Positions 1,668-36,718 of a stretch of DNA of 36,775 nucleotides are shown here, one piece after another. Source of the DNA: a virus; IMG/VR virus record IMGVR_UViG_3300018083_000073, positions 1-36,775 of that record, one strand, 5' to 3'. A program made the translations under genes and the position numbers. The notes under the pieces are model-generated. The model was given only the letters and a program-made list of their open reading frames with translations. It was not told the DNA's origin and ran no database searches. Numbering within the stretch: the stretch's first letter is position 1; each line of letters begins with the position of its first letter.

Positions 1668-3171
1668 CCCGATAGACGCGATTCTCGACGCGCTGCCCGC
1701 CTACGCGCGCGATCCGGCGCTGGCGGCGCGCGAACTGCTCGGGCTGGAACTCGACCCGTGGCAGGCGGATGTGCTGGATGCGGTGTTCCTCACACTGCGC
1801 GGGACCGATCCCTACCCCACTTACACCGCGCTGACCGGCATCGACGCCGTGCCGCGCTACATCACGGTGCGGTCAGGGCACGGGCCGGGAAAGACGGCGA
1901 CAGCGGCGATTGCCGCCGTGCTGGCGCTGGCCGTGCTGCCTGGGCAGGTCAAAATCGTGCTGACGGCACCGACCGCAGCGCAGATTTATGACGCGCTCTT
2001 TGCCGAAATAACCATGTGGTTCCGGCGACTGCCTGCCGAGTACCGCATCCTGTTCACGCTGCTCTCGGATCGCATCGAACTGGCGAGCGAGCCGGAACAA
2101 CGCTTCCTCACGGTGCGTACTTCCAGCCGCGAAAAGCCTGACGCGCTGCAAGGCATCCACGCCGAAACGGTTTTCCTCATTGTGGACGAAGCTCCCGGTG
2201 TGGATGAAGCCGTTTTCGAGGCGTCGGGCGGTTCGATGTCGGGCGAACGCGCGTGCATGTTGCTGCTCGGCAATCCGACGCGGAATAGCGGCTATTTTTG
2301 GGCGAGTCACAACCAACCGGGCTTTGCCGAGCGGTTCGTGAAGTTCCAAGTTAATTCGGAATTGGTGGCGCGCGTTAGCCGTGAGTTTATCGCCCACGTT
2401 GCTGCGATGTACGGCAAGGACAGCGACCAATATCGCGTTCGCATCAAGGGGGAGTTCCCACGGGGCGACGTAAACACACTGATTGCGCGGGACTTGGTGG
2501 TGTGGGCGCGCAAGCGCGACATCCAGACCAGTCCGAACGATGTGCGCGTGTGGGGCATCGACCCGGCGCGCTTCGGTGATGACGTTAACGGCTTCGTGGA
2601 GCGCACCGCCCGCGCCGTGCTGGAAGTCGAGGAATGGACCGGCCTGGACATGATGGAGTCCGTGGGCCGGATCAAGGCGAAGTGGGACGCACGGCCACCA
2701 AGCGAGCGGCCTGCTGAAATCCTCGTTGACGTTATCGGCCTGGGCGCGGGTGTAGCCGACCGGCTGCGCGAATTGGGCCTGCCCGTGCGCGATGTGAACG
2801 TGTCCGAAAGCCCCATGCACGCGAACGCCAAGGGCTACCGGCTGCGTGACGAGCTTTGGTGCAACGCCCGCGAGTGGTTCGCGGAGCGCCAGGGCACCCT
2901 CATCTATGTCGCGGGCGGGCTGTACGACAAGCTCGCTAATGAATTGGTTGCTCCGACCTACACGCACTCGTCCGATGGCCGGATTCGGCTCGAAACCAAG
3001 GACCAGATGCGGAAAAGGGGGATCAAGTCGCCCAACCTCGCTGACGCCTTCGTGCTGACCTTCCACGGGCACGCGCTGGCGAAAGTCGGCACGGCTGGCG
3101 GTTCTGCCTGGGGTGGCGTGCGCGTGCCGTGGGGGCAGAGTATTCAAAGGAACGTGGGTGCCGTGGTATAA
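1627..3171 (+). CDS. terL: Terminase large subunit (ATPase and nuclease)
   Basis: 514 aa from GTG 1627; an ATG at 1645 is an alternative start. This is the packaging motor that pumps DNA into the prohead and cuts it. Walker A is SGHGPGKT at residues 83-90 and Walker B with the catalytic Glu is FLIVDE at about 183-188. A coupling motif GNPTRNSG follows near residue 215. The RNase H-like nuclease domain starts at VWGIDPARFGDD (Asp312 and Asp318/319), continues with ILVDVIG, and ends with a third acidic motif in NLADAF near residue 485. All the expected motor and nuclease residues appear intact. The stop codon TAA lies inside a copy of the genome-wide octamer GTATAAAC (3166-3173), and the portal start follows 10 bases later. 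Confidence 0.95.
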   Translation: MPLSPTMTTQTSFDPIDAILDALPAYARDPALAARELLGLELDPWQADVLDAVFLTLRGTDPYPTYTALTGIDAVPRYITVRSGHGPGKTATAAIAAVLALAVLPGQVKIVLTAPTAAQIYDALFAEITMWFRRLPAEYRILFTLLSDRIELASEPEQRFLTVRTSSREKPDALQGIHAETVFLIVDEAPGVDEAVFEASGGSMSGERACMLLLGNPTRNSGYFWASHNQPGFAERFVKFQVNSELVARVSREFIAHVAAMYGKDSDQYRVRIKGEFPRGDVNTLIARDLVVWARKRDIQTSPNDVRVWGIDPARFGDDVNGFVERTARAVLEVEEWTGLDMMESVGRIKAKWDARPPSERPAEILVDVIGLGAGVADRLRELGLPVRDVNVSESPMHANAKGYRLRDELWCNAREWFAERQGTLIYVAGGLYDKLANELVAPTYTHSSDGRIRLETKDQMRKRGIKSPNLADAFVLTFHGHALAKVGTAGGSAWGGVRVPWGQSIQRNVGAVV

Positions 3172-3173
3172 AC
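3166..3173 (+). promoter_or_regulatory. GTATAAAC octamer overlapping the terL stop codon
   Basis: The TAA stop codon of terL is bases 3-5 of the octamer region (GTA TAA AC in the terL frame). The site fills the gap before the portal ATG at 3181. It is one of four copies placed exactly at junctions of rightward genes. Confidence 0.75.
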
Positions 3174-3180
3174 CCGCCTC

Positions 3181-5586
3181 ATGGCCGCCTACGACGCTCC
3201 TTCCGATTCTCCCGCCCCCGACGAGTCGGGGGAGTCGCCCACCGTCGCGAAGCCCGCGAAAAAGGGCAAGAAGCTGACGGACGAAGAAGTGGGGGAACTG
3301 GTCGTTGCACAACTGGACACCGCCATTGCGTACAGCGATGACGTTCTCGCTCCCGACCGTCTGCTCGCCTCGCAGATGTTCGACGGCAAAGACCCCAAGC
3401 TGAAGGACGAGAAAGGGCGGTCCTCCTACCAAGCGCGCGACGTTGCCGACACCATCAATGCGATGCTGCCGGGACTCATGCGGGTGTTTTTCGGCTCCGA
3501 CGAGGTAGTGGAGTACGAACCCGTGACCGAGGCGGATGTAGCAACCGCCAAGATCGCGACTGCCGCCGCGCACTACGCGCTTCGCCGGAACGATGGGTTC
3601 GACACCATTTACTCAGCCATCCACGACGCGCTCAAGCTGCGCCTGGGCGTGGTCAAGGTGTGGTGGGACGAAGATCAGCACGTTGAGTCGGTCCAGTACG
3701 AAGGGCTGACGCAGGACGAGTTCACGGCGCTGGTAGCGCCCGAGGACTTGCAGTCGCCCGGTGAAGCCCCGCCCAATCCGGCGCAAGGCAAAATCCAGAC
3801 GGTGCCTCTGGATGTCGAAACCGACCCGGAAACGGGCACCATCAATTGCACCATCAAAACGATTCGCACGACGGGGCGCATCCGTTTCGAGGCGATACCG
3901 CCCGAGGAACGTCTGTGCGACCCGAAGGCGCGTAAGTACCACAAGAGCCGCTTCTACGCCCATCGCTGCGTCAAGACCCTGGGCGAACTGGTGGAAATGG
4001 GGTACGAGTGGAAGGATGTCGAGGACATCGAAGGCACCGATGGCCTGGACGAAGATGACGAGGCGGCGAAGCGCACGCCCGACAAGCAACCGCCCCCGGA
4101 GTCGGAAGCGGACGAGGAAAAAGACCCCACCACGCGCCGGGTGGTCTACTACGAGTGCTTCACCTATATCGACCGCGACGGCGACAAAATCCCCGAATAT
4201 CTGCGCGTCTGCCTCGCGGGCACCGACCGCACGGTTCTCAACGTCGCGGAGTGGGCCGATGGGTTCATGTTCGCGGAGTTCTGCACGGAGCCGGTACCGC
4301 ACAGCGTCAACGGGAAGGGTATAAACGACAAGTTGGGCGATGTCCAACGTGTGCAATCCCAACTCGTTCGCGGCACGCTCGACTCGCTCGCGCAATCCAT
4401 CTTCCCGCAGCGCGGCTACCAAGACCTTGAAGTGAATCTTGAGGACTTGAAGAACACCGAGGCCGGTGCGCTCGTCCGCTGCAAGATTCCGCCCGCTGGC
4501 GCGGTGGTGGAGTGGAAGCGCGAGTTCGCGGGCCGCGACACCATGCCCGTCATCAACTACTTCGATTCGGTCAAGGAAGCGCGCACGGGGCAGAGCGCCG
4601 CGAGCAAGGGGCTGAATCCCGATGTCCTGCAATCCACCACCAAGGCGGCGGTGGACGCCACGGTGACGGCGGCGCAGGAACAGAAGGAACTCGCCGCTCG
4701 CGTGATGGCAGAGAACGGCATGAAAATGCTGTTCAAGATCATCCTGCGGTTGCTGGTCAAGCACCACGCCTACGCGGAAACGGTCAAGAATCCTGGCGGC
4801 GACTGGTTTGAGTTCGACCCGCGTGAGTGGAACGAGGACATGGACGTTACGGTGAACACCGGCTTGGGCCGGGGCACCGACCAAGAAAAGATTGGTGTCC
4901 TCGGCAACGTGATGAAGGACCAGAAGGAAATCATGGACAAGGCGGGGTTGGACAACCCGCTGGTATCCCCACAAGAAATGTTCAACACGCGCCGCCGCCT
5001 GTTGGAGCTTTCCGGGTTCAAGGACGTAGGCAACTTCTACAAGAACCCGAAAACCTCGCCGCCGCCCACGCCGAAGCCGCCGCCGCCCGATCCCAACATG
5101 CTGCTCGCACAGGCCGAGTTGAAGAAGGCCGAGGCGATGACTTCCAAGATCGCCGTGGACGCCCGCGTGGCCGTTTTCGAGGCAATCAGCAAGGCCGAAC
5201 ACGACAAGGACAAGTTGCTGATCGACGCCATGATGAAGGCGGCGGAACTGAGTGTGACCAGCGGCAAGAACATCAACACGGCATGGATCACCGAGGAATT
5301 GGAGCGCGACCGCAGCTACAAGAACTTCATCATCGACGTTCTCAAGGCGACCGCTCCCGAGGTTCAAGTACCCGGCGCGCAACCCGGCATGGAAGGCCCG
5401 CCCGGTGCGCCCGGTGCAGGCCCGCCCAAGTCGGTTGGCCCCGGTCCCAAACCCCCCGCCCCCGGTGGTCCCGGCGGGCCACCCGGAGCCTCCCCTGGAT
5501 TCGGGGGTGGTCCTGGCGCACCGCCGGGGGCAGGGGTTCACCGCGAACCGGGACAGCCGTTGCCGCCCGGTGGTCCACTGCAATAG
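3181..5586 (+). CDS. Portal protein, P22-like, with Pro/Gly-rich tail
   Basis: 801 aa. Forms the dodecameric ring through which DNA enters and leaves the head. The region around residues 82-115 (QARDVADTINAMLPGLMR, then VFFGSDEVVEYEP) and the later segments LGVVKVWWDED and GKGINDKLGDVQR are typical of P22/SU10-type portals. The middle holds charged helices and the long helical barrel-like part ends near residue 720. The last 65 residues are an unusual tract of Pro, Gly and Ala (PPGAPGAGPP, PGGPGGPPG), probably disordered. The gene lies between terL and the scaffold gene, as in P22-like phages. An octamer GTATAAAC at 4319 encodes Gly-Ile-Asn using the rare codon ATA. Confidence 0.88.
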   Translation: MAAYDAPSDSPAPDESGESPTVAKPAKKGKKLTDEEVGELVVAQLDTAIAYSDDVLAPDRLLASQMFDGKDPKLKDEKGRSSYQARDVADTINAMLPGLMRVFFGSDEVVEYEPVTEADVATAKIATAAAHYALRRNDGFDTIYSAIHDALKLRLGVVKVWWDEDQHVESVQYEGLTQDEFTALVAPEDLQSPGEAPPNPAQGKIQTVPLDVETDPETGTINCTIKTIRTTGRIRFEAIPPEERLCDPKARKYHKSRFYAHRCVKTLGELVEMGYEWKDVEDIEGTDGLDEDDEAAKRTPDKQPPPESEADEEKDPTTRRVVYYECFTYIDRDGDKIPEYLRVCLAGTDRTVLNVAEWADGFMFAEFCTEPVPHSVNGKGINDKLGDVQRVQSQLVRGTLDSLAQSIFPQRGYQDLEVNLEDLKNTEAGALVRCKIPPAGAVVEWKREFAGRDTMPVINYFDSVKEARTGQSAASKGLNPDVLQSTTKAAVDATVTAAQEQKELAARVMAENGMKMLFKIILRLLVKHHAYAETVKNPGGDWFEFDPREWNEDMDVTVNTGLGRGTDQEKIGVLGNVMKDQKEIMDKAGLDNPLVSPQEMFNTRRRLLELSGFKDVGNFYKNPKTSPPPTPKPPPPDPNMLLAQAELKKAEAMTSKIAVDARVAVFEAISKAEHDKDKLLIDAMMKAAELSVTSGKNINTAWITEELERDRSYKNFIIDVLKATAPEVQVPGAQPGMEGPPGAPGAGPPKSVGPGPKPPAPGGPGGPPGASPGFGGGPGAPPGAGVHREPGQPLPPGGPLQ

Positions 5587-5594
5587 GTATAAAC
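5587..5594 (+). promoter_or_regulatory. GTATAAAC octamer in the portal / small-gene gap
   Basis: Lies directly after the portal TAG stop (5584-5586) and 7 bases before the next start codon, in a 15-base gap. The arrangement octamer-CTCCACC-ATG is close to that at 18928-18955. Confidence 0.75.
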
Positions 5595-9095: not shown

Positions 9096-9715
9096 GCCTC
9101 GCGAACAACACGGAACTTGTCGCCGCCGTCGCGGAGTGGTTGGACCGCACGGACCTGACTGCGCGCATCCCCGACTTCATCACGCTCTGCGAGGCGTGGC
9201 TGAATCGCAATCTGCGCGTGCAGGACATGACCGTGTACGTCAGCGGTCAGAGCGACCAGGGGCGCGTTGCGCTGCCGCTCGACTTCTTGGAAGCTCAGCG
9301 CGTGTCGGTCGGTATAAACGATTTGCGCTTTGTCGCCCTCACGGATGTTCCCGGCTTCCGCGAGTACGCGCGGCAGAACGGTATAAACGAGGTCCGGGGG
9401 TACACCATCCAGGGCAACGCACTGGAACTTGTACCCTCCCCCAATGGTGTAGCCACCATTGACATTGTTTACTACCAGAAGATTCCGCCGGTCGCAGCGG
9501 CACCGGGCGGCATCAACTGGTTGCTCACTGCCCATCCCGATGTGTACCTGTATGGCGCGCTCGCGCAGAGCGCCCCCTACCTGAAGGACCCGGAACGGAT
9601 TCAGCAGTGGAGCCAGCTTTTCGGGGCAGCGGTCGCCAGCGTGACCCAGGCGAGCGCGAAGGTGGCGCACAGCGGCAGCAAGCTCGGTACGCAAGCCCCG
9701 GTCACGTTCGGCTGA
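9092..9715 (+). CDS. Head-tail adaptor protein (putative)
   Basis: 207 aa from GTG 9092. The layout, an N-terminal helix with TELVAAVAEWLDR, then DFITLCEAWLNRNLR, then a beta-rich middle with LPLDFLEAQRVSV and a C-terminal DVYLYGALAQSAPYLKDPER, is typical of small adaptor proteins that sit below the portal in phages with DUF5309 capsids. Such proteins carry the tail hub. Two octamer copies lie only 69 bases apart here (9312 and 9381), each encoding Gly-Ile-Asn with an ATA codon, which is unusual for this GC-rich gene. Confidence 0.75.
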   Translation: MSLANNTELVAAVAEWLDRTDLTARIPDFITLCEAWLNRNLRVQDMTVYVSGQSDQGRVALPLDFLEAQRVSVGINDLRFVALTDVPGFREYARQNGINEVRGYTIQGNALELVPSPNGVATIDIVYYQKIPPVAAAPGGINWLLTAHPDVYLYGALAQSAPYLKDPERIQQWSQLFGAAVASVTQASAKVAHSGSKLGTQAPVTFG

Positions 9716-12162: not shown

Positions 12163-13068
12163 ATGCCGCTTCCCTCATCCGGCACCATCACGTTGCAGCA
12201 GATTTACAACCAATTTGCTGCGCCGCTCGGCACGCCGTTCACGCAGATGGTGAAGGGCGGTTTATACGTCCCGAGCAACGTGCTGAACGGTGCCAACATC
12301 CCGACCGCGCCGCCGATCAAGCTCACGGACTTCTACGGCACGGCTCCATCCGCGTCGATGTCGGCGGCGTGGCTCAGTGCCAACAACGTTACGATGTCCG
12401 GTGCTACGGGCAACGGCACGATGAATCTGTCCGTGAACCTCACGCACGCGGACCAGTCGGGCGACACGTTCTCGCTGGTGGACAACATGGATGTGACGTT
12501 GCGCCTCACCGTGGCGGCGGCATCGGCGTCCAAGTTGGTGCTGCGTCCACAAGCCAACGGCATCGTCGGCCCGAACAACACCAGTCACTTCATCAACACG
12601 ACCCAAGGCTCGGGCCGACCGTCCGAGGCGGGCGCTGCGGGCACCCTGTTCTACGCCACCAGCGACGGGCGCACCTACTACTGCGACAATCCCGACTACT
12701 ACTATGGCGTGCCGGGTGGCACTCCTGGCATGGATGACATCGACGCCGAGCAGCGCATCGACTCCGCGTGCTTCACCACGGTACCTTGGAGCGGGTCGCC
12801 AACGGCAGGCGATGTGTTGTCCTCCAACGTGCAACCGGGCAACACCTTCGACCTGACTTTCAACCTGGGGCGGCGCGTGCTGCGCGCATTCATCGGCGGC
12901 AAGACGCCTGCCAACTACAACGTGAATTGGAGCGCCGGGGGTTTCGGGGCGACGTTCGGCTACAACTTGCTGTTCATCAACGGCAGCACGATAGTCCAGA
13001 CCGTGCCGTTGCAGGCCACAATCCGGCTGTACGGAAACCTCGCCGCGAAGGCTGTGATCTACCCATGA
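12163..13068 (+). CDS. Beta-rich tail or virion protein
   Basis: 301 aa. The N-terminus MPLPSSGTITLQQIYNQF, with a later PIKLTDFYGTA near residue 50, is a pattern often found at the start of phage tail and receptor-binding proteins (LPSSG-x-I ... L-x-D-F-Y-G). The rest is beta-rich with many Thr, Ser, Asn and Gly residues, and a Tyr/Asp cluster (YYCDNPDYYYG). It starts one base after the S74 fibre stop. A third adhesin or a tail tip protein is likely. An octamer in reverse orientation at 12260 encodes Gly-Leu-Tyr. Confidence 0.72.
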   Translation: MPLPSSGTITLQQIYNQFAAPLGTPFTQMVKGGLYVPSNVLNGANIPTAPPIKLTDFYGTAPSASMSAAWLSANNVTMSGATGNGTMNLSVNLTHADQSGDTFSLVDNMDVTLRLTVAAASASKLVLRPQANGIVGPNNTSHFINTTQGSGRPSEAGAAGTLFYATSDGRTYYCDNPDYYYGVPGGTPGMDDIDAEQRIDSACFTTVPWSGSPTAGDVLSSNVQPGNTFDLTFNLGRRVLRAFIGGKTPANYNVNWSAGGFGATFGYNLLFINGSTIVQTVPLQATIRLYGNLAAKAVIYP

Positions 13069-18933: not shown

Positions 18934-18935
18934 AC
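18928..18935 (+). promoter_or_regulatory. GTATAAAC octamer overlapping a stop codon
   Basis: The TAA stop of the 782-aa virion gene is embedded in the octamer. The next start is 18 bases downstream, after GCGGAGCTATCTCCACC. Confidence 0.75.
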
Positions 18936-23124: not shown

Positions 23125-23293
23125 GCTTCGACTCCCCGAGCGCCATGACAACGTGTATAAACAACCACACGGGCCACAGCGCCGCCGCGAGGAACGGATG
23201 CTTGATGGTCGGGTCGGCGGTGTAGGACGGCAGCAGCAGGCCCATCACCAGCGCGTGCAAGAGCGCGTAGTAGAACAGGAAGGCGGTCATCAT
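23111..23293 (-). CDS. Small two-span membrane protein
   Basis: 60 aa. The start ATG at 23293 overlaps the stop of the upstream gene (ATGA). Two hydrophobic segments, FLFYYALLHALVMGLLL (residues 5-21) and FLAAALWPVWLFIHVVMAL (34-52), are joined by a polar loop with Asp and Lys, giving a two-span hairpin. That size and shape fit a class II holin or an accessory (anti)holin; endolysin lies two genes downstream. The gene is wedged between two paralogous unknown genes. The octamer at 23155 falls in the second span and forces an ATA isoleucine codon. Confidence 0.7.
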   Translation of the reverse strand: MMTAFLFYYALLHALVMGLLLPSYTADPTIKHPFLAAALWPVWLFIHVVMALGESKHGNP

Positions 23294-23936: not shown

Positions 23937-25856
23937 TCACTTGCGGTAGCGGCGGGTTTCAAACCCTTCAGCCTTGACCGGCAGGCCGGGGGCGAAGGAT
24001 GGTTGCACGGTCATGTAGTGGGTCAGGATGTTGAGCATACCGGGTGGGGTTTCGCACACAATCTCGTCATGCACGCGGAGTATCGGGTTAAACCGATTCG
24101 CACGCAAGCGCAGTACGCCCCCCATGAACACATCCCGCGCAACTGCCTGGGTGATGTTCTCCGCGAGCAGTCCGCCGTATAAACGACCGTACTTGAACCT
24201 TCCCCCGTAGATCAGTTCCTTGGTGGGGAGGTCTTCAGGCTTTTCCGGTGGGATCGTGACCACGCGCGGATTGAGATACCACAGCGCCCGCCCGGATGGC
24301 AGGATTGCGCGGACCCACGGGCCGGTGCGCTGGAACAGGATCGGCCCCGCTCGCGCGGTGTCCTGGCCGTAGACGGCGACGGCCCATATCGCTTCGTTGA
24401 GTTGCGCCCACCAGCGCACAATGTCAGGGTTGCTGTCCCGATAGGCGTAGATGATTTGCTTGGCGTCTTCCTCGGTGAGCATTACCCCACTCGCCTTGCA
24501 GAACGCCCGGAACTTCTTCCAGCCGCAGCCGTAGCCGCCCGACAGCACGCACACCTTTCCTACGGTGCGCTGGTTCTTGGTGATAGCCTCGGGGGCGATG
24601 TTGTAGATCGCGCTCGCCTGGATGCGGTACACATCCACGCCACGCCGGAAACCGTCGAGCAACACAGTCTCCCCGGCCAACCAAGCCAGCACCCGCGCCT
24701 CAATCTGCGACAGGTCGATGACGGTCAGCACCTTGCCCGGTGGAGCAACCAGCATGGGCCGCACCAAGGCGCTGTAGGTGGTCATGGGCGACCCATCGAC
24801 CAGGGCGATGAGTTCCGGGTCGGAGAGCATGTCCAGCCGGTCAGCCAGCGCGTCAACGTCGTTCACCAGCACGCCGCGCGGAAGGTTGCCTAGCTGCATC
24901 CTGGGGTGCGTGTCGCGCCCGGTGTGCGCGCCGTGGTAGATCAACTGCCCACGCACGCGGCCATCCCCTACGGAGCCATCACGCAGGGCGGCAAACTTGG
25001 ATGTGCTGGACTTCGCCAGTTCCAGCCGGATTTCGGCCACCCGGCGGGCGGGGCCGGTGAAGTCATCTAGCCGGTCTTCTAGCGTCTGTTTGGTGAGGTC
25101 ATCAAGTTCTTCACCCGCGTCGATGGCGAACCAGTCGCCCAACTTCTGTACCTGGGTGGAGTTTATACCGTTGGTGAGGGCGCGGATTTCCGTGCCGAGG
25201 TCGGTGGTGTGCTTGCCTAGTCCACGGATCGCGGCGAGTACCGCCAGCCGGTCCACCAGAATGCCCTCGTCGTTGGCTTCCTCGGTCGCTTCCCAAATCG
25301 CCTGTTCGGCGCGGGCCAGTTCCTTCAGGGGTAGCGCGTCGAGTAGTTCTTGCTCCACGCGAACGTCCTGGCCGCAGTAGTCGCCAAGGCGCACTAGCTC
25401 ATCGTGGGTAGGGGTGGGCAAGACCCCCTTCTTGTCGGGCTTGCAGAGCCGCATCATCAAGCGGTAGCCCTCGCTGTCCTTGTTCAGCGCGATCCGCATG
25501 TCCTTCGCCATCTGGTCGAGGCCGCCACGCAGACCGTGTGCGCGGCCCAAGGCGGCAGTGCAGCGCCAGCGGCTTAGGGGCGGGCAGGGGGGCAGGCCGA
25601 TGGTGTGGCCTAGCACCGTCCACATCACGCGCTCAAAGCCAGCGTTGAAGGCGTGGAAGGTGGTGCCGGGGAGCAGCGTGCCGGTATCGTCCAACCAGGG
25701 GGCGCGATGGTGCCGATCCCACTCGTAGGGCGGTGCGCCGTTTATACTGAGGCGGCACCGGAGAATCTTTGTGGAGGGGTCAGCAGCGTATACATGGACC
25801 CCGCATCGCTTTAGGTCCACACGGCTTTGAGACTCTAGGTCCAGGGACACTCGCAT
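23937..25856 (-). CDS. DNA polymerase, family A, with 3'-5' exonuclease domain
   Basis: 639 aa from ATG 25856 (GGAGAACCCC upstream; the frame opens 17 codons earlier). Copies the phage genome. The N-terminal exonuclease has SLDLES (Asp6, Glu8), HAFNAGFE near residue 68, and YCGQD (Tyr160, Asp164), so proofreading looks intact. Polymerase motifs: HTGRDTHPRMQLGNLPRG near 311-328, motif A DLSQIEAR with Asp381, motif B running from Arg430 through Lys434 to Tyr442-Gly443, and motif C VHDEIV with His596-Asp597-Glu598. No 5'-3' exonuclease domain is present. Three octamers lie in the gene (24177, 25161, 25740). A long structured gap separates it from the upstream DUF2815 gene. Confidence 0.95.
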   Translation of the reverse strand: MRVSLDLESQSRVDLKRCGVHVYAADPSTKILRCRLSINGAPPYEWDRHHRAPWLDDTGTLLPGTTFHAFNAGFERVMWTVLGHTIGLPPCPPLSRWRCTAALGRAHGLRGGLDQMAKDMRIALNKDSEGYRLMMRLCKPDKKGVLPTPTHDELVRLGDYCGQDVRVEQELLDALPLKELARAEQAIWEATEEANDEGILVDRLAVLAAIRGLGKHTTDLGTEIRALTNGINSTQVQKLGDWFAIDAGEELDDLTKQTLEDRLDDFTGPARRVAEIRLELAKSSTSKFAALRDGSVGDGRVRGQLIYHGAHTGRDTHPRMQLGNLPRGVLVNDVDALADRLDMLSDPELIALVDGSPMTTYSALVRPMLVAPPGKVLTVIDLSQIEARVLAWLAGETVLLDGFRRGVDVYRIQASAIYNIAPEAITKNQRTVGKVCVLSGGYGCGWKKFRAFCKASGVMLTEEDAKQIIYAYRDSNPDIVRWWAQLNEAIWAVAVYGQDTARAGPILFQRTGPWVRAILPSGRALWYLNPRVVTIPPEKPEDLPTKELIYGGRFKYGRLYGGLLAENITQAVARDVFMGGVLRLRANRFNPILRVHDEIVCETPPGMLNILTHYMTVQPSFAPGLPVKAEGFETRRYRK

Positions 25857-26791: not shown

Positions 26792-26974
26792 CTACAACGG
26801 GCTTTTCAGGATTGCAATAGCCCAACGAGACTTGTGCGAAGCGAAGCGACGGCCACCCCGCTTCTTGGTGCAGTGCGAGTTCGGTGATGCGCCACACTCG
26901 GGGCAAGTCACGGCGCGCACGGCATAGCGTTTATACCGTGCGCGTGCGCTGCCGCTGTGTTTATGCCCGCTCAC
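26792..26974 (-). CDS. Small zinc-ribbon-like protein
   Basis: 60 aa from GTG 26974, overlapping the DUF2800 stop (GTGA). Very basic. Contains VTCPECGASPNSHCTKKRGG, a Cys-x2-Cys-x7-Cys layout with a following Arg-rich stretch and His, resembling small zinc fingers found in phages next to nucleases. It probably binds DNA or RNA. An octamer at 26929 encodes Arg-Tyr-Lys-Arg, and a one-base variant, GTTTATGC, lies at 26959. Confidence 0.72.
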   Translation of the reverse strand: MSGHKHSGSARARYKRYAVRAVTCPECGASPNSHCTKKRGGRRFASHKSRWAIAILKSPL

Positions 26975-28104
26975 ACAAGGTCGCTCGGCAAGTCGAGCGG
27001 TTGGAAGTCGAGCAACGGCGGTCCCTTGTCGAGCGGCCCCGGATCGTTGAACTTGATGGCCCGCGAGGTCGGTACGTCGATGGTCACACCGGGCGGCAAC
27101 TTGGTGATTTTCTCCGCATCCGTGATCGACACCGGGCGCACCAACTTTATGCCGATTTCGGGTGGGAACGATGTGGCGATCCATTGAATCGCAGCGTCGT
27201 TGACCCATTCGCGCTTGGTCGGGTTGGGCTTGCCCATGAGGGTGCAACCGGGAATGGATGCTCCCAACTCCAACCGCGTGCGGACTTCAGCCTTGATCTT
27301 GTCGGCCCACGCTTCAAACGCCTTGAGCGAGCGGAACAGCACCGCGAGGTCCGTGTCCTCAAGCTCATGCAGCACCAGCGGTTGCACGGGCGGCATCAAG
27401 GCCATATCGCTAGCCCCAATCGCGTACTGCAACGGACAGATGGAACGCGCGGGACACCACTTGCATTGCGACCCCACGACCAGCGGCGCATCGGGGGCGC
27501 GGGCTTCAAGCGCGTGCTGGTGGTAGAACTCGGCCAGGGCGCGGAAGGCGTCTACGTCATCCCATTCTTCCCAATGAATGTCCGGGCTACTGAGGGGTTG
27601 CATGATGCCCAGGCGCACGCCGGTCACGCGCTCGACCAGTTCGATTGCGAGCAGCACGCCGAGTCCGTATAAACGCAGTTGATGGTTCCCCTTCGCGTAT
27701 ACGGGGGTAGCTCCACTCTTGTAGTCGATGACGGTCAGGATGCCGGTCTTGGGGTCGAAGTGGGTGAAGTCGATGGTGCCGAAACACCCGTCCTCTACGA
27801 AGGGCAGCGGGATGAGCCGTTCCGCCTCGTACCAGTTCGGGTCGGTGGTGTAGGGCATGAGGGCCGCAAGGTACGTCGATACGTTCGTGCGGTCATCCAC
27901 GGTGTAGACGTATCCCTCATGTTCGATCTTCTTCGCCATGCTGCCGCCCCGCAGCACATGATCGGCTAGGGCATGGTTGGCTTGGCCTGCCGTTGCCGCA
28001 GCACCCCCCTCGTCGGGGGGTGCCTTGGCAACGAGCGCGACGGAGCCGGGACAGTGGACCCAACGGTGTGCGCTGGACGGTCCAAGTTCGGCGTGCGCGC
28101 CCAT
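26971..28104 (-). CDS. DUF2800 nuclease, PD-(D/E)XK with Fe-S cysteines
   Basis: 377 aa. A RecB/Cas4-like nuclease. The core is visible: GTIDF with Asp112, then VIDYKSG with Asp127 and Lys129, then QLRLY with Gln142 and Tyr146. Cys18 in an early WVHCPGS and Cys214, Cys217 and Cys223 in CKWCPARSICP form the four-cysteine iron-sulfur staple seen in AddB/Cas4-type enzymes. In phages these proteins accompany DUF2815 and polymerase genes and probably process DNA ends for recombination. It starts three bases after the helicase stop. The octamer at 27667 lies over codons of the QLRLY motif. Confidence 0.9.
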   Translation of the reverse strand: MGAHAELGPSSAHRWVHCPGSVALVAKAPPDEGGAAATAGQANHALADHVLRGGSMAKKIEHEGYVYTVDDRTNVSTYLAALMPYTTDPNWYEAERLIPLPFVEDGCFGTIDFTHFDPKTGILTVIDYKSGATPVYAKGNHQLRLYGLGVLLAIELVERVTGVRLGIMQPLSSPDIHWEEWDDVDAFRALAEFYHQHALEARAPDAPLVVGSQCKWCPARSICPLQYAIGASDMALMPPVQPLVLHELEDTDLAVLFRSLKAFEAWADKIKAEVRTRLELGASIPGCTLMGKPNPTKREWVNDAAIQWIATSFPPEIGIKLVRPVSITDAEKITKLPPGVTIDVPTSRAIKFNDPGPLDKGPPLLDFQPLDLPSDLV

Positions 28105-28107: not shown

Positions 28108-29910
28108 TTACTCCATCGCCGCGTTGATGGCTTCGATGGCCTCGGGGTAACGCTCCGGTGCCAGTTCGTTGCCGTGGGACACCTTGAGCGCATCCCACAC
28201 GCCCAGGAGCGAAGCGCGGCCACGCTTGGCGATCAGCGCCGTGGCAGCCGAGCGCACCGCGTCATAGGCCACGGTGGGAGCCGCAGCGCCGTTGCTGGCC
28301 TGGGCGACGGGAGCCGGGGGTGCGGCAGCAGGCGCAGGGGCCGCAGCAGCAGCGGGCGGGGTAGCGGCGGGCGGGGTCGCCTGGGGCGTTGCGGCCTTGC
28401 GCGGGCCACGGGGCGCACGCGGAGGCGCGGCAGGCTTGGGGGCCGCAGGGGTGGCAGCGGGGGCGACTTCGGGCGCGGCAGCGGGGGCCGGTGCCGGGGC
28501 GACCGCTGGTGTGGAGGCACCCACAGGCAGCAGGGGAACCTCGGTATAAACGCCTTCGGGGTCCAGCGTCTTGAGACAGTGGCCCACCTGACCCATGAGG
28601 ATGTGCAGCACATCCATCATGCCGCTGAGTCGGGCCAGCGCGTACACAGTTGCGGAATCGTCTTTCATATCGTGGTTTTCCTTGATGACTTGGGTGATGT
28701 TGCCTTGCTTGAAAAAGTTCGCTTCGATAACACGGTGGTCAATGCTCCCATTGATTGCAAGTATATCCGCAATCACGGGCCTTGTCGCTCCGATGCGGTG
28801 GCACCGATCAATCGCCTGCTCCATGCGGGCGGGTGTCCACTCGCCTTCTACGATGATAACGTGCCTCGCGGCGGTGAGTGTGATGACCTCCCCGGCTGCG
28901 GACGTTTGCCCCAGGAACACGCGCACCGTGGGGTCGCGCTGGAACCTATCTACCACAGTTTGACGCATCCGCGAAGAAACGGACCCGTCGATGCGAACGG
29001 GTTTATACGCGAGCAAGCCAGCTTCCAGCCCGTCGAGGACGCTCAAGTGGTGTGCGAATACCACCACCTTGTCAGACCCTTCCTCCAACTGGTCGATGAT
29101 GTAGCGCACGGCGGCGGGTATCTTCGCCTCGCCGCTCAGCTTCATCAGCGTGGACAGCCCTTCAAAGGCTACGGCGCTGCGATTCTTCGCGATTTGACTC
29201 GGGTCATAGATGCGCTCGCGCTCGTCCACGGGAAGGTCGAGCAGGATGAGCCGCTTCATCTTCGGCGGCAGATCAAGCACTGTGTCCTTCTCCACCCGGA
29301 ACATCCAGGGCGTGAGCAGTTCGCGCAGTTCATCCAGGCGGCTCGCGCCCGTGTAGTCCCACCCCCACTTGGAGAGCCACCCCGCTGCATAGCGCATCCC
29401 GAACTCATGCCGGTTGAGTCTGGTTGCTCCCAACGTGTGCAGCATGGGCCACAGTTCGATGGGGCGATTCGGCATGGGTGTGCCGCTCAACAGTAGGGCG
29501 CGATCCACACGCGGAATGAGCTTCATCGCGAACTTGCTGCGCTTGGTGTTGTGCCCCTTCAGGTAGTGGGATTCGTCAAAGATCACTGAGCCGAAGCGTT
29601 TATACTTGTCCGGGTGCAGCAGTGACCCGTAGCTCACGATCAGCACGTTGCCAGCGGGTAGGTCGAGTAGATGCTGGTGACGGCCCCCGCGCGCGATGTG
29701 CGTGGTAATCTCCGGTCGCCAAATCGCGAACTCGCGCTGCCAGTGGTATAGCGCGCTCGCAGGGACCACGACGAGGCCAGGGCGTGCGGACACATCAGCA
29801 TCGACGCACGACACGATGGTTTTGCCGGTGCCCTGCTCCATCGCGAGATAGGCTTTGGGCTTGGGCTTGCGCCAGCGAACCGCCTCGCCCTGGAACTTGT
29901 AAAGTGGCAT
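28108..29910 (-). CDS. SNF2-type helicase with long Ala/Pro linker and extra C-terminal domain
   Basis: 600 aa. An ATP-driven DNA translocase of the SNF2/SF2 type. Motif I is EQGTGKT (Thr31), motif II DESH (112-115), motif III SGTPMPNRP (142-150), and motif VI AIDRCHRIG (366-374). After the helicase core (ending about residue 410) comes a helical part, then about 85 residues of Ala and Pro with basic spots (about 448-532), and a terminal helical domain of about 55 residues (SAATALIAKRGRASLLGVWDALK). The last looks like the small C-terminal module often added to phage recombination proteins. Three octamers lie within. Its start faces the regulator gene across 47 bases. Confidence 0.9.
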   Translation of the reverse strand: MPLYKFQGEAVRWRKPKPKAYLAMEQGTGKTIVSCVDADVSARPGLVVVPASALYHWQREFAIWRPEITTHIARGGRHQHLLDLPAGNVLIVSYGSLLHPDKYKRFGSVIFDESHYLKGHNTKRSKFAMKLIPRVDRALLLSGTPMPNRPIELWPMLHTLGATRLNRHEFGMRYAAGWLSKWGWDYTGASRLDELRELLTPWMFRVEKDTVLDLPPKMKRLILLDLPVDERERIYDPSQIAKNRSAVAFEGLSTLMKLSGEAKIPAAVRYIIDQLEEGSDKVVVFAHHLSVLDGLEAGLLAYKPVRIDGSVSSRMRQTVVDRFQRDPTVRVFLGQTSAAGEVITLTAARHVIIVEGEWTPARMEQAIDRCHRIGATRPVIADILAINGSIDHRVIEANFFKQGNITQVIKENHDMKDDSATVYALARLSGMMDVLHILMGQVGHCLKTLDPEGVYTEVPLLPVGASTPAVAPAPAPAAAPEVAPAATPAAPKPAAPPRAPRGPRKAATPQATPPAATPPAAAAAPAPAAAPPAPVAQASNGAAAPTVAYDAVRSAATALIAKRGRASLLGVWDALKVSHGNELAPERYPEAIEAINAAME

Positions 29911-29957: not shown

Positions 29958-30341
29958 ATGCCGAAGTCAAGCACCCCCATTACACTGCAAGACCGGGCGC
30001 AATCCATCCTCGCGGTGGAAGCCTGTATAAACAAACTCGGCGTGCGTGGCCTCGCCCGCGCGCTCAACACAACGACCGATGAGGTATACCGCTGGCGCAA
30101 ACTCGGCATCACGGTGATGGCGGCGATCCGTGCGGACGTTGTTGGTGTCTGCCCTAAGGAAACGCTGCGTCCCGATGTGTCGGTAGTTGGGTGGCAGCGT
30201 GAAATCTATCTGGCCCTGGCTGACGGCTCATTGACCGTTACCGGCGAGGGCGATTTGCGCCTCGGTACCTCCGCTGCGAAGCTCGCCGCACGCGAGCGTA
30301 TGCGCGAGCGCCGGGAAAGGATACGCAGTGACGAAGCCTAA
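29958..30341 (+). CDS. YdaS/Cro-like HTH regulator
   Basis: 127 aa. Residues about 17-50 (AVEACINKLGVRGLARALNTTTDEVYRW) form a helix-turn-helix, and the following CPKETLRPDV resembles the YdaS/Cro-type pattern, where a Leu-Arg-Pro-Asp step closes the domain. The C-terminal third is basic and helical. It is divergent from the helicase and overlaps the PrimPol start, so it probably controls the switch between the two replication operons. It is the only clear sequence-specific DNA-binding candidate for the genome-wide octamer, though that link is inference. Its own gene has an octamer at 30025, within the HTH coding region. Confidence 0.8.
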   Translation: MPKSSTPITLQDRAQSILAVEACINKLGVRGLARALNTTTDEVYRWRKLGITVMAAIRADVVGVCPKETLRPDVSVVGWQREIYLALADGSLTVTGEGDLRLGTSAAKLAARERMRERRERIRSDEA

Positions 30342-32646
30342 AGGTGCCCCTATGAGTCCTGCCGATGTAGCCCAAGCCTATCGCAACACCTTGGGGTTCG
30401 CAGTCATCCCGCTCATCCCGAACACGAAGAAACCGGCGATCAGCACCCGCGACTTCGTTGACGGGTTGGCGGCTCCGATGTGGGGCGCGGATAGTGGTGT
30501 CGGTGTGATGCACGCGCTGTCGGGAACGTGCGCGGTGGACGCCGATAACCTTCCGCGTGTGGTCGAGGGGTTTATACGCCTTGGCTTGGACTTCTACACC
30601 TTGATGAAGGGTGCGCCTCGGATCAACGGCTGGCCGGGTCGAGGCAAGTGGTTGTTCCGCGTCCCTGCCGGGATGGACCTGACGCTACGAACGTGGACAC
30701 AGGTGTTGGAGTTGCGTGCGGGCGGGCTGACCTACGACTGTCTGCCGCCCACGATCCATCCCAAGACCGGGCGGGCATTCCAGTGGGAAGGCGACACGGC
30801 CCCGGCCACGCGCGATGACATTCCCGTGCTGCCTGCGGAACTGGTCGAGTTGTGGCAGCACTTCGATGCGCTCATGCCCGAACTCACGGGCGATGTGAGC
30901 TACCTCAAGGCGGCTCCCTCACGCGATCCCAACGAACCGCTGCCGCCTGACGTAGAGGCGTACAACGCTCGGGTGGCCTGCGCTGACGTACTGGTGGCGG
31001 CGGGCTATATCGAAGCGCCGGGGAACCGCTGGCTTCCGCCCGGTTCGACTTCGGGTATGCCAGGAACAATCATCTTCACCGATGCCGATGGGGTCGAGCG
31101 CATCTGGTCGCACAACAATTCCAGCGCCCTGTGTGACGGCAAGCCGCATGATGCCTTCGACGCCATGCGTATCTTGGAGTGCGACGGCGTGTGGGGCGTG
31201 GCTTTCGAGCGCGCGGCCATTGCGTTAGCGCCCGCGCTGGTGGGCGATTTTGGCGAGCTTGCTGAAGCGGGCGAGTGGTCCGTGCGCGAGGGCCATTCGA
31301 TGCGTGTCACAGTGGATTCGGGAAGCGGGACCAGTGTGACCCGTATAAACGACAGCGACCCGCTGGCCCTTGAACTGCCTGTGTTCGATGTGCGGTCGCT
31401 GCGTGAGTTGGTCGCGCTGCCGCGTGCCGCCACGCCCCGCTTCCACATCGAACGCCTCATCCCCCGTTCCGACGATGACGAGGGCGGAATGCTCACGGCC
31501 CTGACCGGCCCCTCGGGCCTGGGCAAGTCCTGGGTTGCCCTGCACACGGCAATAGAGTGTGTGCTTGGCCGCAATATCTTCGCCCACGAAGAACTGGAAG
31601 TTGTCGAGCCGTGCGGAGTGATCGTGCTGCCGCTGGAAATGGATCAGCGCACCATGCAGGATCGGGTCGAGGAAATGTGCCGCAACATGACCCTGACCCA
31701 AGCCCAACTGGACCTGTTGGCCGACAACCTCCACTTCATCACGCCAAGGCCACCAAGCGATCCGGCTGCGGGGTACTTTGAATCGTACTACCCGCTCGTC
31801 ACCACCGAGTACGGCATCGCGACCCCAAACACCCGGTTGATCCAACCGCTCGCGGACGCCTTGATGGAGTGCAAGCGGGCGGCGGGTATAAACGGCATGG
31901 CCGTGCGGTTGGTGGTGCTGGACTCACAAAGCTCCATGCACGGGGTAGGGGAAAACGACAACGCGGCGGCTACCGTCGTGGTCAACACGATCCGCGCCAT
32001 GCTGCGGCGCGCGGGCCTGGACGGGTTGATGATCGCCCACACGGCCAAGCACGAAACCAAGAACACCGAGCGCGATGCGATGGGGTCGGTGCGTGGTGCG
32101 GGTGCCTTCGGAGCATCCTATCGCAGCATCGTCACCCTGGCCCCCTTGTCCGACAAGGAACTTGCCGAGCGCCAAATCGAACGCCGCCACCGCAGCCGCT
32201 TTATCAAGGTGTTTATACCCGGCAAGAACTTCCGCCGCCCGAACCGCTACGAATTTGTGGTTCACCTGTTTGGCGGGGTATACCCACAGATCGTGAGCGA
32301 CGATGCCGCCGCGATCATGGCTGGCGCGAACGCTGCCGGGGTGCCGGTGGCTGTCGCCCCCTGCTCTGCGGCGACCCTGCTCGCCGTGCTGTCTGCGGTC
32401 TACGCCACGGGTCCGGTCAGCGGTAACGCCCTGCGCCAGCGGCGCGGGTTGCGGCCTCGGGACTTGGAGTGGGGCACCATGCGGGCGGCTATCGAATGGC
32501 TGTGCGAGCGCCAGTTGATCGTGTCGAATGGCCTGGACGGCAACCTGAAAAACATCGAACTGGACCGGAGCAGTCACGCACTCGACGTTGCTGCCGAAAT
32601 GGTGCGGCAAGCCTTGGGGTTGAACGATGACAGTGACTTGGTGTAG
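30328..32646 (+). CDS. Fused PrimPol primase and RepA-like helicase
   Basis: 772 aa from GTG 30328; ATG 30352, with AAGG upstream, is an alternative. Residues about 14-160 are a bifunctional primase-polymerase: GFAVIPLIPNTKKP, VDAD (70-73), GRGKWLFRVP (104-113), and LRAGG...PPTIHPKTGR with His144. Residues about 385-640 are a RecA-like AAA ATPase of the RepA type: Walker A GPSGLGKS (394-401) and Walker B LVVLD (528-532). The C-terminal 100 residues look like a winged helix. The protein should prime and unwind DNA for the family A polymerase. It ends in Asp-Leu-Val. Four octamers lie inside (30570, 31343, 31886, 32211), the densest use in any gene. Confidence 0.92.
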   Translation: MTKPKGAPMSPADVAQAYRNTLGFAVIPLIPNTKKPAISTRDFVDGLAAPMWGADSGVGVMHALSGTCAVDADNLPRVVEGFIRLGLDFYTLMKGAPRINGWPGRGKWLFRVPAGMDLTLRTWTQVLELRAGGLTYDCLPPTIHPKTGRAFQWEGDTAPATRDDIPVLPAELVELWQHFDALMPELTGDVSYLKAAPSRDPNEPLPPDVEAYNARVACADVLVAAGYIEAPGNRWLPPGSTSGMPGTIIFTDADGVERIWSHNNSSALCDGKPHDAFDAMRILECDGVWGVAFERAAIALAPALVGDFGELAEAGEWSVREGHSMRVTVDSGSGTSVTRINDSDPLALELPVFDVRSLRELVALPRAATPRFHIERLIPRSDDDEGGMLTALTGPSGLGKSWVALHTAIECVLGRNIFAHEELEVVEPCGVIVLPLEMDQRTMQDRVEEMCRNMTLTQAQLDLLADNLHFITPRPPSDPAAGYFESYYPLVTTEYGIATPNTRLIQPLADALMECKRAAGINGMAVRLVVLDSQSSMHGVGENDNAAATVVVNTIRAMLRRAGLDGLMIAHTAKHETKNTERDAMGSVRGAGAFGASYRSIVTLAPLSDKELAERQIERRHRSRFIKVFIPGKNFRRPNRYEFVVHLFGGVYPQIVSDDAAAIMAGANAAGVPVAVAPCSAATLLAVLSAVYATGPVSGNALRQRRGLRPRDLEWGTMRAAIEWLCERQLIVSNGLDGNLKNIELDRSSHALDVAAEMVRQALGLNDDSDLV

Positions 32647-32679: not shown

Positions 32680-32680
32680 C

Positions 32681-33076
32681 ATGCACCAGAGACAACCAGA
32701 AGGCGGCTCCCTTGGACGCCCCGAAATGAGCGACATGGGCCTCGGCTACGGCCCCGGCGCGGAATACATCGCGGGCAGCACGGGCCGCTCCGCACCGCCC
32801 CCGCTCCGCACCGCCGCACAGGAGCGCGACAACAGTGCCATCCGGGTCGAACTGAACTCCCTGGCCCGCTCGACCGAACACCTGACCCGCCTTACCGGCG
32901 TGCTGGCCGAGCGCCTTCAGCCGGTGATGAACCCGGCTCCGTTTCACGGCACGGGCAAGCGCGAGCAGGAACCGGCTCCGGTTGTTCCCCTCGCTGGCGA
33001 ACTGGCAGAGTATCGCCTTCGGGTGGAACTCGCCAGCGTGACGCTCAACACCATCCTGCAAGCCCTGGAAGTATAA
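32681..33076 (+). CDS. Unknown small protein with coiled-coil centre
   Basis: 131 aa from ATG 32681, after AGGAG; the frame is open upstream but runs into PrimPol. The first 45 residues are polar and Gly/Pro-rich. Residues about 50-80 (RDNSAIRVELNSLARSTEHLTRLTGVLAERLQPV) are amphipathic helix, and the C-terminal 30 residues (ELAEYRLRVELASVTLNTILQALEV) form a second helix. The pattern is familiar from phage early regions but has no known function. Its TAA stop is embedded in an octamer (33071-33078), five bases before the next start. Confidence 0.72.
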   Translation: MHQRQPEGGSLGRPEMSDMGLGYGPGAEYIAGSTGRSAPPPLRTAAQERDNSAIRVELNSLARSTEHLTRLTGVLAERLQPVMNPAPFHGTGKREQEPAPVVPLAGELAEYRLRVELASVTLNTILQALEV

Positions 33077-33078
33077 AC
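33071..33078 (+). promoter_or_regulatory. GTATAAAC octamer overlapping a stop codon
   Basis: The stop TAA of the upstream gene is inside the octamer and the next ATG follows after ACC. The site leaves almost no room for a ribosome-binding sequence. Confidence 0.75.
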
Positions 33079-33922: not shown

Positions 33923-33930
33923 GTATAAAC
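33923..33930 (+). promoter_or_regulatory. GTATAAAC octamer beside the convergent hairpin
   Basis: Intergenic copy, between the hairpin and the stop codon (33932) of the leftward gene. It is one of the few copies with GTATAAAC on the strand opposite to the nearest gene. Confidence 0.7.
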
Positions 33931-34259: not shown

Positions 34260-34267
34260 GTATAAAC
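34260..34267 (+). promoter_or_regulatory. GTATAAAC octamer between two leftward genes
   Basis: Located in the 65-base gap between the VRR-NUC stop and the next leftward start. Orientation is opposite to transcription. Confidence 0.7.
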
Positions 34268-34278: not shown

Positions 34279-34704
34279 TCAGACCGTCACGGGGAACACA
34301 TCGGGGTACGCGGCGGCAAGTTCGCGCACCGCCTCTTTCCAGCCGTAGCACACCACGACGCGCCAGCCCTGCGTGTGCAACATCAAGTGCTTCTCGCCCT
34401 GCGCCTGGGTCACGCCGTAGCTCCCTATGAGGCGCTTCAGTTCGATGGCAAGTCCACACTCTCCGCTCGCCAGGGGCCGGAAGAACATCAAATCCGGCCA
34501 GCCCGGTTCCAGCCCTTGTTGCTTGGCGTGGCTCGCGCTGCGGGGGTCCAAGGCCACCCCGCTAAGGGACGCGAGCATGTGGGGCGTGAGGACGCCTGGG
34601 GGTGTGCCGAGGAAGCGCACCGCGTTGACCACCTTGGCTTGGTCGGTGCGCTCTCGGGTGTTGTGATCCGGGTTGTACGCGGAGGGTCGGCGGCTAGATG
34701 TCAT
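34279..34704 (-). CDS. VRR-NUC domain nuclease
   Basis: 141 aa, the normal size for stand-alone phage VRR-NUC proteins, which cut branched DNA such as replication or recombination intermediates. Motifs: QQGLEPGWPDLMFF with catalytic Asp71, LAIELKR with Glu88 and Lys90, Gln100/Gln102, and the closing GWRVVVCYGWKEAV. The ATG at 34704 has no visible ribosome-binding site; an octamer (34709-34716) lies immediately upstream of it instead. Confidence 0.9.
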   Translation of the reverse strand: MTSSRRPSAYNPDHNTRERTDQAKVVNAVRFLGTPPGVLTPHMLASLSGVALDPRSASHAKQQGLEPGWPDLMFFRPLASGECGLAIELKRLIGSYGVTQAQGEKHLMLHTQGWRVVVCYGWKEAVRELAAAYPDVFPVTV

Positions 34705-34708: not shown

Positions 34709-34768
34709 GTTTATACCCCAATGGTGGACATCTGTACCACTTGCTCGGTACTTGCTCGGTGTTTATAC
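34709..34768 (-). promoter_or_regulatory. Two octamers and a tandem 11-bp repeat upstream of VRR-NUC
   Basis: The 69-base gap before the VRR-NUC gene contains GTTTATAC at 34709-34716 and at 34761-34768. Between them, ACTTGCTCGGT occurs twice in perfect tandem (34739-34749, 34750-34760), the second directly abutting the octamer. This is the densest control-like cluster in the right-end operon. No good promoter hexamers were seen. Confidence 0.65.
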
Positions 34769-35338: not shown

Positions 35339-35605
35339 CTAGTTCTCCTTGGCTTGTTTATACGGGTGAATCAACCATTGGCCCAAGGGCCAACTCTGGT
35401 TTTCGGAATGACAGTGCTTGCGGTGGTAGGGATTGTGTGGAGGGAATAGCGTGTTGTCGTACCATTCTTGGTCGCTGCGGTACTGCGGCGCGTAGAACAT
35501 GCCGTTAGACGCTGGCTCGCTGGCCCACTGCGGTACATGCTCCAACGTGAAACGGTGGGGGTACCGCCCCTTGGCGTGGGTGAGGGTCATGCGCTCGCGC
35601 TTCAT
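35339..35605 (-). CDS. Unknown small protein rich in His, Tyr and Trp
   Basis: 88 aa from ATG 35605, overlapping the upstream stop (ATGA). Contains FTLEHVPQWASEPASNGMFYAPQYRSDQEWYDN and a later HNPYHRKHCHSENQSWPLGQWL, rich in aromatic and His residues. No family recognised. An octamer at 35356 encodes Pro-Tyr-Lys near the C-terminus. Confidence 0.7.
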   Translation of the reverse strand: MKRERMTLTHAKGRYPHRFTLEHVPQWASEPASNGMFYAPQYRSDQEWYDNTLFPPHNPYHRKHCHSENQSWPLGQWLIHPYKQAKEN

Positions 35606-36027
35606 TCCAGACCCCACGGAGCCGAGTCATAGCCTGACAGATTCGCCTCGTCGGCATCCGCGCCCAGGCCAAGCAACTTCAAGAGCGCGGCACGCAAGCG
35701 GCTAATGTAGTCGGCGGCGGGCGTCTCGTCCCAATCGTCGGATTCGCATGACTGGTAGGCATAGCACGCGCACGCCTTGAGTAGCACAACCGGATCGCGG
35801 AAAGTCGAGGGGCGCGGTTTATACCCGTTGGGCAAACCCGCCTCGTACATTTCGTGCGCGTCACCGGGGTAGCGCGTGTGCAAGCTGCGGATGTTCTGCT
35901 GCGCCAGCATCCGTCCAATCTCAAAATCGGGTTTGGGCGGATCGAACCCACCCCCCAAGGCCGGGACTAACGAGCGTGCGCCCACTAGCGCGTCGATGTG
36001 CGCGTTCGACACCATCCACGCGCTCAT
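35602..36027 (-). CDS. Conserved phage protein of unknown function (MSAWMVS type)
   Basis: 141 aa. Begins MSAWMVSNAHIDALVGA, a start common to many phage and prophage proteins of unknown function. The middle contains IGRMLAQQNIRSLHTRYPG, and the later CACYAYQSCESDDWDETPA holds three cysteines. Starts on the stop of the upstream gene (ATGA). Expressed with the early right-end operon. The octamer at 35817 encodes Tyr-Lys-Pro. Confidence 0.78.
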   Translation of the reverse strand: MSAWMVSNAHIDALVGARSLVPALGGGFDPPKPDFEIGRMLAQQNIRSLHTRYPGDAHEMYEAGLPNGYKPRPSTFRDPVVLLKACACYAYQSCESDDWDETPAADYISRLRAALLKLLGLGADADEANLSGYDSAPWGLE

Positions 36028-36437: not shown

Positions 36438-36468
36438 GGTTGTTCCTTCTGGTGGTGGGTGCTTCGCT

Positions 36469-36498
36469 AGTGTAGGCCACCCCACACTGTCAAGTCAA
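36469..36498 (-). promoter_or_regulatory. Predicted sigma70-type promoter for the right-end operon
   Basis: On the minus strand, TTGACT (36498-36493) and TACACT (36474-36469) are separated by 18 bases. Transcription would begin near 36461, leaving a leader of about 25 bases before ATG 36437. An overlapping TTGACA (36493-36488) has poor spacing. One TAGGCCA repeat (36473-36487) falls between the two hexamers, so a repeat-binding protein would block this promoter. Confidence 0.6.
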
Positions 36499-36559
36499 GG
36501 CCAGATAGCTTAGGCCATCCCGCTTGGTAGGCCAAGTCGCGGATAGGCCAGATCGCTTA
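36473..36559 (+). repeat. TAGGCCA repeat cluster, left group (five copies)
   Basis: Copies start at 36473, 36497, 36511, 36528 and 36544. The best form is TAGGCCATCCCGCTTG (36511); others keep AGGCCA and vary after it. Spacing of the last four is 14, 17 and 16 bases, close to a helical repeat and a half, as in iteron arrays. Confidence 0.75.
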
Positions 36560-36580
36560 GGGAGGGAACAACCGAAGCCC

Positions 36581-36613
36581 CGGCAATCGCCGCCGGGTTG
36601 GTGGCAATTGCCG
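36581..36613. repeat. Inverted repeat in the right-end region
   Basis: CGGCAATCGCC (36581-36591) pairs with GGCAATTGCCG (36603-36613) with one mismatch and an 11-base loop. An octamer within a longer palindrome, GCGTTTATACGC (36615-36626), follows two bases later. Confidence 0.6.
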
Positions 36614-36718
36614 TGCGTTTATACGCGACATGAACCCGGCGGTGGGCTGGCTCGAAGGTCCGGCGGCATGTCGTGTTTATACCTGGGGCAGCGTTCGAGC
36701 CTACGGGTGTTGGTGGGG

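Follow-up and report, generated by a model that had tools for sequence, protein, structure and literature searches.

The genome of a metagenomic short-tailed phage carries 34 exact copies of an asymmetric octamer, GTATAAAC, distributed from position 3166 to 36682 with 19 on the plus and 15 on the minus strand, and maintained by selection that acts on the DNA. The window analysed here is the entire record of 36,775 bases. We tentatively suggest that the octamers may be all-or-none recognition sites of a nickase-like DNA-processing enzyme, in a variant that uses both strands. Genome-wide exact words are rare among phages, and in a scan of loci of at least 12 kb, mostly distant relatives and control phages, GTATAAAC stood far above all other words. 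What localized nicks do in T5-, phiKMV- and tf-like phages has been a standing question since the 1960s (PMC3517423), and a two-strand, evenly spaced word that is kept against protein conservation would place strong constraints on that function. Were the octamer a host tag, it would represent a new uptake or self-recognition word of a bacterium with a probably high GC content.

The phage and its relatives

The genome is podovirus-like, with terminase, portal, scaffold, capsid, tail and virion genes on the left in plus orientation, and on the right side genes for an endolysin, DNA polymerase A, a Gp2.5-like single-strand binding protein, a PD-(D/E)XK nuclease, an SNF2-type helicase, an HTH/Cro-like protein, a prim-pol with an AAA domain and a VRR-NUC nuclease. 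Gene calls are our own, made from codon usage and homology. Ordinary -10 boxes are scarce in the window. The nearest known kin are the Manatee Spring phages and Sinorhizobium phage phiM5 (terminase about 43%, portal 32-37%); tf and LUZ24 are more distant, sharing the portal, scaffold, capsid and a tail protein at 26-28% identity (portal 26-27%, capsid 27-28%). No close DNA relative was found among the phage records searched, in a search that may leave out very near records, and searches of viral contigs with the portal, DNA polymerase, capsid, prim-pol and a 928-aa protein returned only relatives at about 28-38% or none. None of these relatives has the octamer above background, and other dispersed-looking words in relatives are tandem repeats or start-associated sequences. 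Octamer pairs were also sought in viral contigs by two low-power pattern scans, which brought up repeat-protein genes and small groups of conserved copies but no dispersed case.

Copy number and exactness

GTATAAAC is by far the most over-represented 8-mer in the window, with 34 copies against 0.05 expected under an order-2 Markov model; the next unrelated 8-mer has 12 against 1.3, so that no other comes close. In 100 dinucleotide shuffles of the window the octamer averaged 0.16 copies, with a maximum of 2, which agrees with the estimate in an earlier note on this DNA (34 exact copies against about 0.2). That note had also remarked on the near-absence of one-base variants, and just two one-mismatch copies are present where about 3 are expected: GTATAAAT at 867-874, inside the first 3.1 kb that is otherwise without octamers, and GCATAAAC at 26,959. 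Windows with two mismatches number 102, made up of the octamers' own 34 reverse complements and 68 others, against 67 expected. Since both classes of near-match occur at chance, GTATAAAC is all-or-none, with no surrounding set of weaker sites. Neither of the two perfect palindromes one base away from it, GTATATAC and GTTTAAAC, has a single copy; hence the two asymmetric positions matter and asymmetry belongs to the signal, and the earlier suggestion that a near-palindrome suits a dimeric binding protein is not supported. The earlier note did not recognise the octamer as a described one, and the open literature searched yielded chance hits only.

Three trivial origins were rejected. An artefact or 8-bp insertion is contradicted by reading frames that run through the octamers and by a gap-free alignment of homologues across the octamer in the portal gene. 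A tripeptide (GIN) repeat is contradicted by octamers in noncoding DNA and in five reading frames, namely two sense and all three antisense ones, and an RNA element by the lack of any match in Rfam and by antisense copies that are equally exact.

Distribution along the genome

Ten copies lie at 3.1-21.7 kb and 24 from 22,239 onward, with none before 3,166, exactly as the earlier note had it; the imbalance is significant (P=2.4e-4), the right (replication/early) arm, which makes up 40% of the genome, holding 24 of the 34 copies. The 19 copies between 22.2 and 34.7 kb are separated by gaps of 325-1189 bp (CV 0.36), and 0 of 20,000 simulations were as even; the right-arm sites are much more evenly spaced than random. 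Three pairs of copies lie less than 300 bp apart (52, 58 and 69 bp), all of them same-strand, and neighbours on opposite strands are at least 325 bp apart. Apart from a weak preference for G/A and then C after the word, no other base is conserved in the flanks.

In the left arm, the first copy (3166..3173, +) gives the TAA stop of the terminase large subunit gene, the second (4319..4326, +) lies in the portal gene, where it imposes G380 and N382, and the third (5587..5594, +) falls between the portal gene and the following gene. Copies at 9312..9319, 9381..9388, 15509..15516 and 21603..21610, all on the plus strand, encode Gly-Ile-Asn, and that at 14567..14574 (+) encodes Tyr-Lys; 12260..12267 (-) is antisense to gene 12163-13068, with a TTA codon, and 18928..18935 (+) gives the TAA stop of gene 16585-18933.

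In the right arm, coding copies on the minus strand occur in the endolysin gene (22239..22246), in the DNA polymerase gene (25161..25168, and 25740..25747 close to the gene start), in the SNF2-type helicase gene (29001..29008 and 29598..29605) and at 35817..35824. Plus-strand copies are antisense to gene 23111-23293 (23155..23162), to the DNA polymerase gene (24177..24184; TTA codon, consensus residues kept), to the PD-(D/E)XK nuclease gene (27667..27674; TTA codon) and to the SNF2-type helicase gene (28544..28551). The prim-pol gene holds two plus-strand coding copies (31343..31350 and 31886..31893) and two minus-strand antisense copies (30570..30577 and 32211..32218), one copy (30025..30032, +) is within the HTH-regulator gene, and another (33071..33078, +) gives the TAA stop of gene 32627-33076. 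The copy at 26929..26936 (-) is intergenic; 33923..33930 (+) lies 3 bp beyond a bidirectional hairpin between convergent operons, and 34260..34267 (+) is intergenic and opposed to transcription. The VRR-NUC gene start has a copy 4 nt upstream (34709..34716, -), followed 52 bp further on by an intergenic one (34761..34768, -), and 35356..35363 (-) lies upstream of gene 34774-35334. The last two (36617..36624 and 36675..36682, both -, 58 bp apart) occupy the noncoding right end.

Selection on DNA rather than protein

Genes fully contain 23 copies, three more supply a TAA stop codon and eight are intergenic; noncoding DNA makes up 4.8% of the genome, yet is touched by 11 copies (P=3e-7). The rarest codons of the genome are concentrated in octamers, which account for 13 of 25 ATA and 3 of 6 TTA codons. 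Portal residues 380 and 382 are mostly Ser/Ala in about 135 homologues, and are here Gly/Asn, seen in none of them; at other sites, among them an Arg-Leu-Tyr in the DNA polymerase, a rare codon fits the octamer to conserved residues. Because of these rare codons and the portal residues we conclude that selection acts on DNA. The word is letter-perfect even at a cost to protein, and therefore some protein must read it, all-or-none, genome-wide.

Orientation is less straightforward. Transcription is co-directional with 26 of the 34 copies (P=0.0015) and opposed to eight, where the direction of intergenic copies was assigned by us. Inside genes the sense bias is 16:7, for which the null P is 0.03-0.35 in amino-acid-constraint models that allow substitutions and 0.004 if synonymous placements alone are counted, of which there are just ten. 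Where substitutions are allowed, amino-acid constraint by itself could thus yield such a coding bias, and we place no weight on it.

Comparison with nick sites, uptake words and stoperators

As a statistic for comparison with control genomes we took the number of one-mismatch copies above expectation, divided by the number of exact copies. It is -0.02 in the window, where 2 near-matches stand against 2.6 expected, -0.13 for the tf nick 9-mer, -0.37 for the homologous 9-mer of LUZ24 and 0.11 for the HP1 uptake word, against 2.66 for CTGTCAG in phiM5 and 0.5-0.8 for the stoperator core of Peaches, where it is significant (P 0.006-0.02). By exactness the octamer falls together with nick sites and uptake words and apart from stoperators; by strand use it falls apart from nick sites and together with uptake words. 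High density in the early arm is common to the window, tf and Peaches but not HP1, and even spacing to the window, HP1 and the dense part of tf but not Peaches. Positions inside genes account for 10 of 14 sites in tf, 15 of 17 in HP1 and 23 of 34 in the window, and for fewer (7 of 17) in Peaches. No known family agrees with the octamer in every test applied.

In tf, 14 nicks have been mapped at TACT/RTGMC, 11 of them at one exact 9-mer (PMC3517423). We counted 11 exact and 6 one-mismatch copies of this 9-mer against 7.4 expected of the latter, making 17 with every one-mismatch form; the first ten nick sites are evenly spaced (CV 0.37, P=0.003), over a range chosen after looking. The nick sites of tf and LUZ24 (TACTGTGAC and TACTATGAC) resemble the octamer in being short asymmetric words without a near-match excess, mostly inside genes with some on gene boundaries, and denser in the early/replication half, in phages with distantly related head genes. 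They differ in sequence, in copy number (9-14) and in strand, 14/14 sites in tf and 9/9 in LUZ24 being on the top strand, and the nicks of tf are experimentally shown whereas the octamer is known here from sequence alone. With nick-site systems (tf/LUZ24, phiKMV, T5) the octamer has in common that it is an exact short word whose near-matches are not enriched, but it lacks their restriction to one strand, and because this feature was tested and found absent, we keep it out of the nick-site family.

Haemophilus phage HP1 carries its host's uptake tag, AAGTGCGGT. There are 17 exact copies, 11 and 6 by strand and 15 in genes, with 9 one-mismatch copies against 7.1 expected, and their spacing is even (CV 0.51, P=0.004). 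Like the octamer, this word is exact, on both strands, evenly spaced and mostly in genes, with near-matches at chance, and with exactness, strands and spacing taken together no other system matches as closely; unlike the octamer, it is the known word of a competent host, has 17 copies and shows no early-arm concentration. GTATAAAC differs both from AAGTGCGGT and from the Neisseria uptake word, and no paper describing it as a known uptake word was found in the open literature searched. Uptake signals are placed on two strands, dispersed, more even than random and frequent in noncoding DNA, and all of these features are seen in the octamer.

The earlier note had likened the octamers to the stoperators of Cluster A phages, for which Peaches served as control genome and L5 was taken from the literature. 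The stoperators of both are likewise dispersed, asymmetric, denser in the right arm and inclined to be co-directional. They are, unlike the octamer, 13 bp long, degenerate, nearly fixed in orientation, mostly outside genes and bound by a known repressor: in Peaches the core has 13 near-matches against 5.7 expected (P=0.006) and 15 of 17 sites have the same orientation relative to transcription, and a reversed stoperator no longer functions (PMC9283540). Cluster A stoperators have a cognate two-domain immunity repressor; the candidate counterpart in the window is one 127-aa HTH/Cro-like gene. The octamer is exact, opposed to transcription in 8 of 34 cases, and shows no confinement to short intergenic spaces, given the 23 copies fully inside genes. 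The analogy stands as far as a dispersed-site system under DNA-level selection is concerned, and is not supported as a close one.

The distant relative phiM5 (terminase 43%, portal 32%) has a dispersed word on both strands, CTGTCAG, which is a different word and strongly degenerate, with 355 one-mismatch copies against 131 expected. Its whole genome has 186 copies of CTGTCA (32 expected) and 84 of CTGTCAG, apparently a second, degenerate dispersed-word system.

What might read the octamer

A nickase-like mechanism seems to us the likeliest because kinship with the LUZ24 group in the head genes is accompanied by a common signature. In LUZ24-group phages, a putative nickase interrupts single strands locally, at an exact 9-mer. 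By analogy, GTATAAAC would be a short, asymmetric, all-or-none site, and its reader a sequence-specific DNA-processing enzyme acting on the whole phage genome, not on particular genes; it would cut or mark one strand per octamer, at intervals of about 0.4-1 kb in the early/replication arm and at wider intervals in the structural arm. That palindromic variants are missing agrees with an asymmetric reader, and the strand arrangement of close pairs and of opposite-strand neighbours is weakly consistent with the avoidance of double-strand breaks. Copy number, exactness, DNA-level selection, spacing, density and strand use are observed; that the reader may be an enzyme, that it may nick, and which proteins could be involved we infer. 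A candidate reader is the 127-aa HTH/Cro-like protein (29958..30341, +), which has a weak family match, a low-confidence structural model (pLDDT 67) and no match among phage proteins; its gene stands at a divergent operon junction and has one octamer inside. Putative processing enzymes are the VRR-NUC/Holliday-junction-resolvase-like nuclease (34279..34704, -) and the PD-(D/E)XK nuclease (DUF2800; 26971..28104, -). Against the nickase-like reading, every described nick system is one-strand, three relatives closer than tf and LUZ24 (ctjtQ328, ctvy9321 and ctyzp037) have no such word, that of phiM5 is degenerate, and no nickase gene was identified in the phage. We regard it as a serious possibility, if short of probable, that the octamer belongs to no described system, being either a site-specific system for processing or marking DNA on two strands that is confined to this phage lineage, or else the first uptake or self tag of a third competent bacterial lineage, observed by way of its phage.

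The octamer could also be a host-specific 'self' word common to phage and bacterium, most like the uptake signal of a competent host, whose copies would accumulate through biased uptake and recombination while the phage is in, or recombining with, host DNA. This fits the bare statistics better than a nickase-like enzyme does, given the match with HP1 and the behaviour of H. influenzae uptake words, 65% of which lie in reading frames, with numbers above expectation in noncoding DNA and no orientation bias (PMC1939737). It is nevertheless unlikely: sampled Armatimonadota genomes are not enriched in GTATAAAC (Armatimonadota may not be the host lineage), the words of HP1 show no preference for the early arm, the genes recognised in the window include no integrase, and a new host lineage would be required. 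We know of no lineage with GTATAAAC as its uptake word.

Even spacing and greater density over the replication arm, where the PD-(D/E)XK nuclease and SNF2-type helicase genes are neighbours and a prim-pol gene is present, would suit a replication or recombination signal, such as a Chi-like helicase-nuclease stop, a prim-pol priming site or a compaction-protein site at regular intervals. The strand pattern fits neither one nor two replication forks, a RecBCD-type Chi would be expected in opposite orientation near both ends, which counts against it, and the same three genes are common in relatives without the octamer, making such a signal distinctly unlikely.

Silencing of the stoperator type, with octamers bound by a phage repressor (perhaps the 29958-30341 HTH protein) that halts elongation of transcripts, would account for the co-directional majority and the early-arm enrichment, and a Cro/HTH-like gene with an octamer inside it does lie at the divergent operon junction. 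We consider it improbable, since known stoperators are degenerate, nearly all in one orientation and mostly outside genes, many octamers are antisense or deep inside genes, and amino-acid constraint can explain the 16:7 sense bias.

All-or-none exactness is typical of modifying enzymes and the site is asymmetric, which might indicate self-marking by a methyltransferase or other DNA-modifying enzyme; this is very improbable, because Pfam or PHROGs scans brought up no methyltransferase among the proteins covered and modification alone gives no reason for multiplied, evenly spaced sites. That the octamers are TATAAA-based phage promoters on the model of T4 late promoters is scarcely credible. They are the only TATAAA-type element in the genome (34 of 35 TATAAA, with TATAAT at 0 copies), and several lie just upstream of start codons. 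Against this, none stands close upstream of the major capsid or terminase gene, the divergent promoter region 29911-29957 holds none, two thirds of the copies fall within genes, eight are opposed to transcription, and there is no single sense element upstream of late genes as in T4-like phages.

Additional observations

The hairpin between the convergent operons (33880-33919, CCCCGCCCTGTGAAT/ATTCACAGGGCGGGG) appears perfect and is probably a two-way terminator. In the noncoding right end (36472-36775), four to five TAGGCCATCCCGCTT-like repeats, spaced at 16-17 bp in 36719-36775, stand beside two octamers, and this region is a possible origin, promoter or terminal region. Among the other loci, L018 has a AACCGAGGACCCGACCATG-type sequence repeated directly upstream of start codons at 3.6-18.1 kb, resembling start-associated sequences of other phages, and L048, a 22 kb viral contig of 58% GC, has about eight dispersed palindromes GAAGTWACTTC over 14 kb that look like repressor operators.
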